Assembly (NCBI GenBank): GCA_017459425.1
Contig: JAFUCZ010000036.1
Coordinates: forward strand, 1-49,232
Length of the DNA: 49,232 bases
Reading direction: 5' to 3'
Source: Bacilli bacterium
Lineage (GTDB): Bacteria; Bacillota_I; Bacilli_A; RF39; UBA660
This document shows positions 1,527 to 49,232 of this stretch, piece after piece. The position numbers and the translations under genes were made by a program. Each line of letters opens with the position of its first letter. Positions within the stretch are counted from its first letter, which is position 1. The notes under the pieces are model-generated. The model worked only from the letters and a program-made list of their open reading frames with translations. It made no database searches and was not told where the DNA came from.

Positions 1527-2499
1527 ATGTAGTGGATGTGGAGTAGAATTACAATATGATAATCCTTCAAAAAATGGATACGCTAAAATAAATAGCAATC
1601 TATGTAACAGATGTTTTAGAATTAAAAATTATAATGAATATTTAAATGTTGATATTGATTCAACTAAATTTATTGATATTTTAAAACAAATAAATGAAAC
1701 TAATTCATTAGTTGTTTTAGTGGTAGATTTAATAAATATTCCAAATAACCTTAGTTTAATTACTAAATATTTAAAAAATAAATTACTATTTGTATTTACA
1801 AAAAGAGATTTATTACCTTTATCAGTTAATGATGAAAAAATTTTAAATTATATAGAGTCATTTAATATAAATTATTGTGATAAAGAAATAGTAAGCAGTA
1901 AAAATAATTATAATTTAGATTCATTATATGAAAAAATAAATAAAAATAAAACTAATAATGATGTTTATTTTATAGGATTTACAAATGCAGGGAAATCAAG
2001 CTTAATAAATAAAATCATATATAATTATACAGACATTGATTTTAATATTACAACAAGTATTTTACCTTCAACAACTTTAAATACAATTAGAATTAAAACT
2101 AATGATTTTAATATAATTGATACACCAGGAATAGTAGATGAAGGTAATATAATAGATAAAATTGATAGTGATAAAATTAAAAAAATAATTTCAAAAAAAG
2201 AAATAAAACCAATTACTTATCAATTAAAACCTAACCAATATTTACTAATTGATGATTTTGTTTTAATTAAAAGCAATTCAGATTGTAATTTAACTATATA
2301 TATGTCAAATAATTTAGAAATAAATAGATATTATAAAAAAGTAACACTAAATGATAGTATAACAAACAACTATATTATACAAAAAGATAATGATATAGTA
2401 ATACAAGGGTTAGGATTTATTAAAATAGCAAATGAATCTAATTTAGATATAAGTATTATTAAAAATGTAAATTTATTTATTAGAAAAAGTTTAATATAA
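1519..2499 (+). CDS. yqeH: Ribosome biogenesis GTPase YqeH
   Basis: A 326-residue circularly permuted GTPase for 30S subunit assembly. An N-terminal zinc finger (CSGCG near residues 3-7, CNRC near 27-30) precedes GTPase motifs in permuted order: G4 TKRD, G5 SSKN, G1 GFTNAGKSS, then G3 DTPG. The C-terminal part is the YqeH-specific region. The start is the ATG at 1519, with AAAGG at 1506-1510 ahead of it and the Cys motif directly after; an in-frame TTG at 1483 is not supported. It overlaps yqeG by 8 bases, so the two are translationally coupled, and it ends at a strong hairpin terminator. Confidence 0.95.
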   Translation: MTKCSGCGVELQYDNPSKNGYAKINSNLCNRCFRIKNYNEYLNVDIDSTKFIDILKQINETNSLVVLVVDLINIPNNLSLITKYLKNKLLFVFTKRDLLPLSVNDEKILNYIESFNINYCDKEIVSSKNNYNLDSLYEKINKNKTNNDVYFIGFTNAGKSSLINKIIYNYTDIDFNITTSILPSTTLNTIRIKTNDFNIIDTPGIVDEGNIIDKIDSDKIKKIISKKEIKPITYQLKPNQYLLIDDFVLIKSNSDCNLTIYMSNNLEINRYYKKVTLNDSITNNYIIQKDNDIVIQGLGFIKIANESNLDISIIKNVNLFIRKSLI

Positions 2500-2523
2500 A
2501 ACAGCCTTAATCGGCTGTTTTTT
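2498..2523. terminator. Bidirectional terminator, yqeH / lipoprotein gene
   Basis: A perfect 9-bp stem (AAAACAGCC / GGCTGTTTT) with a 6-base loop, flanked by A-runs on the left and T-runs on the right, so it can serve both strands. The stop codon of the minus-strand lipoprotein lies in the loop and that of yqeH in the left edge. Confidence 0.9.
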
Positions 2524-3109
2524 CTACATAATATTTATCATATATTAATTTTATATCTGTAATTTTATTTTTTTCTAATATATATTTTATTGTAAGCATA
2601 CTTCCATTACCAAATGACCTATAGTAATAATTTATTTCATCGCTTGTTTTTTCTCTTCTCATATAGCGATATTTATAATTAATATTGTTAGTATCATAAT
2701 ATAAAATAGGTACATTATCTTTTAATATATTTACTATATAACTATCAATATAAAGAGTAGCATAATTTAAATTTAATTCTTCATTGTACATAAAATTTAA
2801 GTCAGAATATTTAATAAAATATTTGTCATTTTCTTTATATACACCTTTTGTATTTGGTTCATCAGTTCTTGCTTCATCAGAAAACAAATCTAAAGCTGAA
2901 ATATCTATTATTTTATTAGTAATTGATTCTTTTTGAATTAATTGATCTATTAAATCTACATCATCACTATCTAATTTTGATTTATCATAGTCTAAATTTT
3001 GATGTAAATCAACAATAATATCTGATAGCTTTTCAGTTTTAGAAAGCAATGATCTATTGGTACAACCACATAATGTTAAACAAAAAATTGCAATTATTAT
3101 TTTTTTCAA
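2507..3109 (-). CDS. Predicted lipoprotein of unknown function
   Basis: A 200-residue protein starting at TTG (3109) after GGAGTGATAA. The N-terminus is LKKIIIAIFCLTLCGC, a lipoprotein signal peptide with lipobox LCGC, so it should be anchored on the outer face of the membrane. The rest is hydrophilic, rich in Asp, Asn and Tyr, with no recognised domain. The 10 bases separating it from the pilin-like/C39 gene upstream make one transcript likely. The frame runs on to an ATG-like start at 3208, but that would overlap the upstream gene and bury the signal peptide. Any role in an envelope machine with that gene is inference. Confidence 0.8.
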   Translation of the reverse strand: MKKIIIAIFCLTLCGCTNRSLLSKTEKLSDIIVDLHQNLDYDKSKLDSDDVDLIDQLIQKESITNKIIDISALDLFSDEARTDEPNTKGVYKENDKYFIKYSDLNFMYNEELNLNYATLYIDSYIVNILKDNVPILYYDTNNINYKYRYMRREKTSDEINYYYRSFGNGSMLTIKYILEKNKITDIKLIYDKYYVEKTAD

Positions 3110-3119
3110 ATTATCACTC

Positions 3120-47217: not shown

Positions 47218-48936
47218 ATGGAAAGTATTACATTAATTTTTATTACACTTTTTATAGTTGCATCCGTACTTATTGTAGGAATACTTTATTTAATACAAAA
47301 TGTAAAGAATAAGAAATATAAAAAACGTTTAGAAGAATTAGAAATTGAAAAGAATAAAATATATAGTGCTCCAATTGCTTCTGAACTTGCAAAAATAGAA
47401 ACATTTTTAAATAATGAAAAATTGAATAATTTGTATGGTGACTGGAAAAATAGATTTGAAAATATTAAAAAACATCAAATTCCAAAAATAACTGATATGA
47501 TATTGGAAGCTGATTATTCATTATCACAACTTGATTATAAATCTACTGTTTATAAACTTGCAAAACTAGAAATGGAACTATATAGAGTTAAAACAAATAG
47601 CGAATTGCTTCTTAATCAGATCAAGGAAGTTACAACTAGTGAAGAAAGAAATAGAGCAATTGTTACTAAATTAAAAGCTACATATAGAGAATTGTATCAA
47701 AAATTTACAGATACTAAAAGTGATTATAAAGAAACTTCAAAACCTATAACTTTACAATTTGAAAATATTGCTAAAAGGTTTGAAGATTTTGAACTTATAA
47801 TGGAAAATAATGAATACACTGAAGTTACAAAAATAATAAAAGTAATAGATGAAATGTTAAAACACATGGAAGTTGTAATAGAAGAAATGCCTTCTATAAT
47901 GTTAATGGCTCGTGATTTGCTTCCAAAACGCATTAAAGAAATAGAGGATATTTATAAGAAAATGATGAAAGAAGGATATCCACTAGATTATTTGAATGTT
48001 GATTATAACATAGCTGAAGCAAACAAAAAAATAAATGATATTCTCGATAGAAGTAAAGTATTAAATCTAGAAGATAGTTTATTTGAATTAAAAGTATTGA
48101 TGGAATATTTTGATGCTTTATATGGAGATTTTGAAAAAGAAAAACTTAATAAACAACATTATGAAGAATCCAATAGTTTATTTAAAAACAAACTTGATAA
48201 AACTTCAAAACTTGTTGGTGATATGGTTAGTAAAGTAGATGAAATTAAAAATGCTTATGATCTATCTGATGATGATTTATCTGTTTTATCTGATGTTAAA
48301 TACGAATTAGATAAACTAGAAAATGATTATAGAATTTTAACAAATCATACAAGTAATCATACATTCGCATATTCTAAATTAATAAAAGAAGTAGAAGGTT
48401 TAGTACTTAGACTTGCAAATATTGAAGAAAAACTTGATTCTTCCTTAGATGAATTAGGTAGTATGAGAGAAGATGAAGTTAGAGCTCGTCAACAACTTGA
48501 TGAAGTTAAATTAATTTTAAAAGAATCTAAACAAAAAATACGCGAATATAACTTACCAGTTATACCAAAAAATTATTTTGTTGAACTTAATGAAGCAAGT
48601 GAGGCAATAAAAGAAATTGTAAAAGAATTAAATAAAAAACCAATTACTATAAGTGTCTTAAATACTCGCGTTGATACAGCTCGTGATTTAGTTTTAAAAT
48701 TGTTTACAACAACTAAAGAAATGATGAAAACTGCTATGTTTGCTGAAATGGCAATAGTATATGGTAATAGATATAGAAGTAATGTTGATGAATTAGATAA
48801 GTGTTTAACTTATTCTGAAGTATTATTCTATAAAGGCGAGTATCAAAAATCACTTGAACTTACTATAAATTCACTTAATCGTATTGAACCAGGTATATAT
48901 AATAAATTATTAAAATTATATTCTGATGAAAAGTAA
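47218..48936 (+). CDS. ezrA: Septation ring formation regulator EzrA
   Basis: 572 residues, normal length. One N-terminal membrane helix (about 5-26) is followed by a long helical coiled-coil cytoplasmic part (KKYKKRLEELEIEKNKIYSAPIASELAKIE....) resembling the spectrin-like repeats of EzrA. The conserved LYGDWKNRFENI and SLSQLDYKSTV near the N-terminus and NRYRSNVDELDKCLTYSEVLFYKGEYQKSLEL near the C-terminus (QNR-patch region) match the family. EzrA restrains FtsZ rings. SD GGCGGTGATT; TATAAT at 47199-47204 is the likely -10. Divergent from rpsD. The tail ends in DEK without extra domains. Confidence 0.94.
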   Translation: MESITLIFITLFIVASVLIVGILYLIQNVKNKKYKKRLEELEIEKNKIYSAPIASELAKIETFLNNEKLNNLYGDWKNRFENIKKHQIPKITDMILEADYSLSQLDYKSTVYKLAKLEMELYRVKTNSELLLNQIKEVTTSEERNRAIVTKLKATYRELYQKFTDTKSDYKETSKPITLQFENIAKRFEDFELIMENNEYTEVTKIIKVIDEMLKHMEVVIEEMPSIMLMARDLLPKRIKEIEDIYKKMMKEGYPLDYLNVDYNIAEANKKINDILDRSKVLNLEDSLFELKVLMEYFDALYGDFEKEKLNKQHYEESNSLFKNKLDKTSKLVGDMVSKVDEIKNAYDLSDDDLSVLSDVKYELDKLENDYRILTNHTSNHTFAYSKLIKEVEGLVLRLANIEEKLDSSLDELGSMREDEVRARQQLDEVKLILKESKQKIREYNLPVIPKNYFVELNEASEAIKEIVKELNKKPITISVLNTRVDTARDLVLKLFTTTKEMMKTAMFAEMAIVYGNRYRSNVDELDKCLTYSEVLFYKGEYQKSLELTINSLNRIEPGIYNKLLKLYSDEK

Positions 48937-49003: not shown

Positions 49004-49036
49004 AAATGAGAAGTTTAATAAATTTCTCATTTTCTA
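49004..49036 (+). terminator. Terminator after ezrA
   Basis: AAATGAGAA / TTCTCATTT perfect stem with an A/T loop and TTTTC after it, about 70 bases past the ezrA stop and directly before the next promoter. A weaker hairpin around CCTTATAAAATAAGG (48974-48988) lies upstream. Confidence 0.75.
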
Positions 49037-49067
49037 TTGACAAGTAGGGGGGGGGTTGTGATATAAT
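49037..49067 (+). promoter_or_regulatory. Promoter with a G9 tract in the spacer (candidate phase-variable switch)
   Basis: Consensus TTGACA at 49037-49042 and TATAAT at 49062-49067 are 19 bases apart. The spacer contains nine consecutive G (49047-49055). Optimal spacing is 17, which would be reached with G7. In DNA this AT-rich such a G run is exceptional. Slippage that alters promoter spacing is a known way to switch surface genes. Confidence 0.75.
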
Positions 49068-49092
49068 GTGTTTGTAAAATAGAGGAGGAATT

Positions 49093-49232
49093 ATGACAGA
49101 AAGAAACAAAAACATCCTACTAGGAGTACTTGTAGTAGGAATAGTATCAATGACAGTAGTCTTTGCAGCACTATCCCAAAACTTAAATATTAATGGGCGT
49201 GCAAAAGTACAAAATTTAGATAGTAGTTGGAA
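49093..49232 (+). CDS. N-terminus of a secreted or surface protein (3' partial)
   Basis: 46 codons are visible before the window ends. MTERNKNILLGVLVVGIVSMTVVFAALSQNLNINGRAKVQNLDSSW has a charged start, one long hydrophobic helix (about 8-27) ending in AALS, a plausible signal-peptidase site, then a beta-type start (LNINGRAKVQNLDSSW). Proteins opening this way in gut Bacilli are secreted TasA/camelysin-like or beta-sandwich surface proteins; only the signal segment can be supported here. SD GAGGAGG. Expression depends on the G9 promoter just upstream. Confidence 0.8.
   Translation, partial: MTERNKNILLGVLVVGIVSMTVVFAALSQNLNINGRAKVQNLDSSW

Follow-up and report, generated by a model that had tools for sequence, protein, structure and literature searches.

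A nine-G tract in a promoter spacer of an uncultured Bacilli genome as a probable slipped-strand switch for a surface protein

At the right end of a contig from an uncultured member of the Bacilli, nine consecutive G residues separate the −35 and −10 hexamers of a promoter that faces a truncated surface-protein gene, and the question is what such a tract does there. A first-pass annotation, made from the sequence alone, had read it as a likely site of slipped-strand phase variation. The window analysed is the whole of contig C32 (49,232 bases), which belongs to a draft genome (G000) of 1.09 Mb in 36 contigs that is 85.6% complete.

The promoter and its copies in one genome

All features of the promoter lie on the forward strand. 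The −35 hexamer TTGACA is at 49037..49042, and the 19-base spacer that follows (49043-49061) reads AGTA, then nine G (49047..49055), then TTGTGA before TATAAT, with the −10 hexamer at 49062-49067 forming part of an extended −10, TGA-TATAAT, at 49059..49067. The −10 ends 25 bases upstream of the truncated gene, whose start ATG is at 49093, and a ribosome binding site, GAGGAGG, is found between the two at 49082..49088. The anatomy as first annotated (TTGACA, G9, TATAAT and a spacer of 19) is exact in every detail, and the remark that no other such run occurs in the window also holds, the G9 being the sole run of more than five G and the next longest being of five. A first-order Markov model with both strands counted predicts about 0.006 runs of at least nine G for the window, and Rfam and tRNA searches gave no feature that accounts for the poly-G site. 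The upstream neighbour is ezrA (47218..48936, forward strand; PF06160, E=4.8e-102), a gene that suits a host among the Bacilli, and between it and the promoter is an AT-rich inverted repeat (49004..49032, forward strand, with arms at 49004-49012 and 49024-49032). Since the left arm is missing from the promoter copy on contig C30, this repeat is likelier to be the end of the ezrA transcript than a part of the switch, and probably has no role in the latter.

The gene itself (49093..49232, forward strand) is seen as a 5' part only, 46 residues being visible because the frame (MTERNKNILLGVLVVGIVSMTVVFAALSQ...) leaves the contig at 49232. Its N-terminus is hydrophobic, in keeping with the signal peptide or anchor claimed for it at first, and a complete paralogue of 362 aa is present on C30 behind the same promoter. 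A tentative assignment to a TasA/camelysin-like family comes from a match to PF12389 (Peptidase_M73) of 27.9 bits against a cut-off of 22.5, while the NCBIfam TasA model gave 20.3 bits, far under its cut-off of 450, and the comparison with solved TasA gave E=0.045. Fragments of this gene family sit at several contig ends of G000, and the window stops at the gene because the family repeat probably broke the assembly.

Throughout the 1.09 Mb assembly there are only two runs of seven or more G, both of them G9 and both in this promoter, the second being at C30:74840. A third copy of the promoter, on C17, reads TTGACAAGTA-G6-TTGTGATATAAT, and the gene upstream of it is read, from its translated end, as a prepilin peptidase. 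The −35 hexamer is kept in the C17 and C30 copies and the spacer flanks of the three promoters are letter-identical, and these copies differ in tract length, carrying nine, nine and six G to give spacers of 19, 19 and 16. The same tract was therefore to be found before paralogous surface genes when it was looked for there, G9 on C30 and G6 on C17, and the genes concerned are near-identical. On C6 the start of the gene recurs behind a different promoter, one without a G run.

The mechanism proposed is that the G9 tract acts as a slipped-strand mispairing site within the spacer of a sigma-70-type promoter, such that gains and losses of G at replication would alter the distance between −35 and −10, and the altered distance would change transcription of the surface-anchored TasA/camelysin-like protein. 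The promoter belongs to a promoter-plus-gene cassette present in several copies in G000, and has many counterparts across an uncultured family of Bacilli. For the most part the proteins driven by these promoters are secreted, sortase-anchored, pilin-like or of the SipW-type matrix class, and some of them are targets of diversity-generating retroelements (DGRs). That the tract slips in a population, and that transcription changes as a result, is what we infer from the arrangements described here.

Recurrence, tract length and spacer length in the family

A search of 291 genomes of the same family with the pattern TTGACA-N(0-11)-G6-N(0-13)-TATAAT found poly-G spacer promoters in 46 of them, across 35 genera and with up to 21 sites per genome, and the reversed pattern used as control gave a single match in this set. 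A G8 pattern was applied to a phylum-wide draw, and of 373 genomes from other families it matched 14, several of these within a single family. Among the matches listed, the named genomes were mostly MAGs of gut Bacilli and Clostridia, with Saccharibacteria, Ancillula, Treponema ruminis and Streptobacillus also present. In some genomes the long G runs are all located in such spacers (8/8 in G058, 3/3 in G249), and some others hold long G runs additional to those in promoter spacers. Long G runs number about 39 in genome G240, and in G131 there are about 52 runs of at least eight G, many of them outside strict TTGACA/TATAAT spacers. By genus the tract ranges from abutting the −35 to abutting the −10, with unrelated flanks, and what the genera have in common is placement in the spacer, there being no shared motif around the tract. 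That this placement is kept while tract position and flanks differ is what a device working through the length of the spacer would lead one to expect.

These observations bear on the idea that the promoter is constitutive and that its tract regulates nothing, being a relic fixed when the cassette was duplicated. All three copies in G000 are indeed one duplicated cassette, but this AT-rich genome has very few long G runs, and such runs are nevertheless found at the same promoter position in 35 genera, among which the flanks differ, and the idea seems highly improbable.

Tract length varies between paralogous promoters that are otherwise the same. When promoters of one genome were grouped by identical non-G letters between TTGACA and TATAAT, 17 of the 21 groups held more than one tract length, their members differing in the number of G alone; these are comparisons between paralogues, in which differences of ±1 in a G run can be assembly error. 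Examples are 7/7/9/9/9 in G249, 13/16/16 in G153 and 6/9/9 in G000, and across the family tracts run from 6 to 16. Variation is not universal, since all ten copies in G118, which form two flank-identical groups (of eight and two), are G9. The genus of G000 is represented by one genome, and a search of viral contigs for conspecific tract variants found no conspecific contig. Could the tracts then be artefacts, whether poly-G from base-calling or lengths misassembled in metagenomes? The genomes are largely fragmented drafts in which many copies lie at the ends of contigs, and the length of a homopolymer is prone to error. Tracts are also contig-internal, though, with matching sequence on both sides, and are placed specifically between TTGACA and TATAAT in the 46 genomes as against the lone reversed-pattern match, while differences such as G6 from G9, G7 from G9 and G13 from G16 go beyond ±1; an artefact is accordingly given very little credence. 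Taken with the paralogue copies and the recurrence in the family, the groups that vary in length support the slipped-strand reading with which the locus was first annotated. The further idea in that annotation, that the position of the tract suits it to altering promoter strength alone, is more conjectural.

Quite how tract length would map onto promoter strength is less simple. In the same DNA, TTGACA/TATAAT pairs of the ordinary kind most often have a spacer of 17 (four of the six with spacers of 15-23), and in named loci 9 of 14 ordinary pairs have a spacer of 17. Poly-G promoters peak instead at 19 (34/107) and are rarely at 17 (3/107), so that family-wide the assembled poly-G spacers cluster at 16 and at 19-20 and avoid 17. 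The spacer of 19 given for the G9 promoter in the first-pass annotation stands, whereas the view that G9 makes the spacer simply two bases too long, with an optimum at 17, is uncertain because poly-G promoters cluster at 19 and seldom have 17. A cluster at 19 with few members at 17 is a departure from a simple model with the optimum at 17, unless most copies are off, and the peak would reflect either most copies being in a low state or stacked G residues shifting the optimum.

The clustering at 19 rather than 17 also lends something to another explanation, in which the tract is a needed binding site or structural element of the spacer (a site for a regulator, A-like DNA or half of a G-quadruplex) and the variation in length is a tolerated by-product. 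Retention of a long tract in many genera, and of G9 in both of the flank-identical groups of G118, would fit such an element, but the tract may lie anywhere between −35 and −10 amid unrelated flanks, and lengths of 6 to 16 suit a device that sets spacer length better than a defined operator. This explanation is judged unlikely, if less so than the two above. Because similar length-varying G runs recur before surface genes of the family, it is very probable, as far as sequence comparison goes, that the G9 tract is a slipped-strand promoter switch for a surface protein, both within its cassette and as a member of a family-wide set.

Genes behind poly-G promoters and their link to DGRs

Surface proteins are enriched behind the poly-G promoters. 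Where the downstream gene could be read, which was so at 98 sites, 88 of the encoded proteins have a strongly hydrophobic N-terminal stretch; the same scoring of 39 genes from the window gave 12. Ninety-five of these downstream proteins were included in a Pfam scan, whose matches included camelysin-like Peptidase_M73 (8), the prepilin N-methylation motif (5), BspA-type LRR (4), the Listeria-Bacteroides repeat (4), UDP-galactopyranose mutase (1) and sugar transferase (1), with a Gp10_C domain in five of the poly-G-driven members scanned. Many C-termini carry sortase-like signals, such as NPNTSD or NPATGD, together with a terminal membrane segment. There are exceptions, in that poly-G promoters in G240 and G135 (L247-L251) precede genes for proteins that are not exported, an ABC transporter ATPase among them. 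Small anchored proteins stand behind poly-G promoters in G131 and G237 (L218-L227), some of which probably carry Gp10_C, a phage baseplate-like C-terminal domain, and in G209 two exported poly-G-driven proteins (L265, L267) apparently end in a Hint/intein-like domain.

The C30 paralogue of the window gene is linked to a DGR. Its GC content is 53% in the last 150 bases against 34% overall, and its C-terminus is a DGR variable region that matches a template repeat (TR) at C1:1214-1352, itself placed after another member of the gene family with a variable region. A reverse transcriptase (RT) lies beside the TR at C1:1950-3053, and the DGR locus as a whole (C1:1214-3053) comprises the TR, an Avd-like frame and the RT and adjoins the surface gene with the variable region; the avd frame appears interrupted, by frameshift or assembly error. 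Relative to the TR, substitutions in the C1 variable region fall at 26 of 45 A positions and 12 of 93 others (p=8e-8), and in that of C30 at 20 of 43 and 20 of 92 (p=3.5e-3). A second DGR-like RT (C18:26653-27654, reverse strand), 44% identical to the first, is some 8.5 kb from two members of the gene family without a variable region. On C14 (~2286-3110) a type IV prepilin N-terminus (KKGFTLVELLAVI) is fused to a C-terminal domain of the kind seen in DGR targets, which suggests a variable pilin tip, and the end of this protein aligns poorly to the C1 template.

In G008 the parts form a contiguous unit of a G10 promoter, a SipW-type matrix protein (TIGR04090, over cut-off), a variable region, a template, an Avd-like gene (NF033474 E=1.7e-8, below cut-off; PHROG Avd E=1.1e-11) and an RT, with template/variable mismatches at 14/31 A and 2/80 other positions. 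In G229 and G249, too, genes behind poly-G promoters match a template in the neighbourhood of an RT, with mismatches biased to A (p=9e-6 and p=6.5e-4, respectively), and judged by such template matches at least four genomes have a DGR target under a poly-G promoter. A DGR-target-like C-terminal domain is present in approximately 29 of the 98 poly-G-driven proteins by a hand-made motif. The TR search in G083, G058, G118 and G209 gave no clean template near the RT, and in G058, G118 and G209 a different target gene matched best. By hand count an RT match occurs in 26 of 46 poly-G genomes and 110 of 245 others, with no clear enrichment, and the link between DGR and poly-G tract is therefore at the level of the gene only; for want of such genome-level enrichment neither device seems to require the other, though they share a common gene class. 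Rather tentatively, and at somewhat less than even chance, a system of antigenic variation in two layers may be envisaged for these gut Bacilli of reduced genome, in which DGRs rewrite the C-termini of surface paralogues and independent poly-G switches choose at random the paralogues that are expressed, most being off at any time, the last point being drawn from the avoidance of 17 by assembled spacers.

Relation to known systems

Poly-G switches in promoter spacers are best known from a few pathogens, and here the same device would extend to uncultured gut commensals belonging to dozens of genera, in which a genome of ~1.2 Mb often has several copies in front of surface genes. If it is confirmed, its signature could be counted in existing metagenome reads, making switching in the gut measurable, and random expression would be paired with targeted hypermutation of the same surface proteins. 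A literature search gave nothing relevant on poly-G promoters in gut metagenomes and no paper joining DGRs with phase variation, and so, as far as these searches show, the type of switch is known, while how widely it is used by uncultured gut Bacilli, and that it coincides with surface proteins diversified by DGRs, are undescribed.

The vlp genes of Mycoplasma hyorhinis are a surface-gene family in a small AT-rich genome, each promoter with its own poly-A spacer. The present promoters resemble them in having a homopolymer per promoter of a surface-gene family in a small AT-rich genome, and differ in that the tract is poly-G and in the DGR link, which vlp is not known to have. As in the DGR of Bordetella phage type, G000 and its relatives have an RT, an Avd-like gene, a TR and variable regions in which substitutions favour template A, but with several dispersed targets, some of them poly-G-driven.

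Tracts in porA of Neisseria meningitidis are about nine to eleven long. Transcription of PorA is dependent on poly-G that lies between its −10 and −35, and gain or loss of one base in the tract alters it (PMC3899988). The promoters described here likewise serve surface-protein genes and have a homopolymer of G as part of the spacer, with the differences of a consensus −35, an uncultured low-GC Bacilli host and many possible loci per genome. In Haemophilus influenzae, changes in a TA repeat alter the −10/−35 spacing of the surface appendage genes hifA and hifB (PMC3899988), and repeat length is predicted to set this spacing for surface genes here also; in hifA/hifB the repeat is a dinucleotide in one shared bidirectional promoter, whereas in these Bacilli it is a mononucleotide G in many separate promoters.
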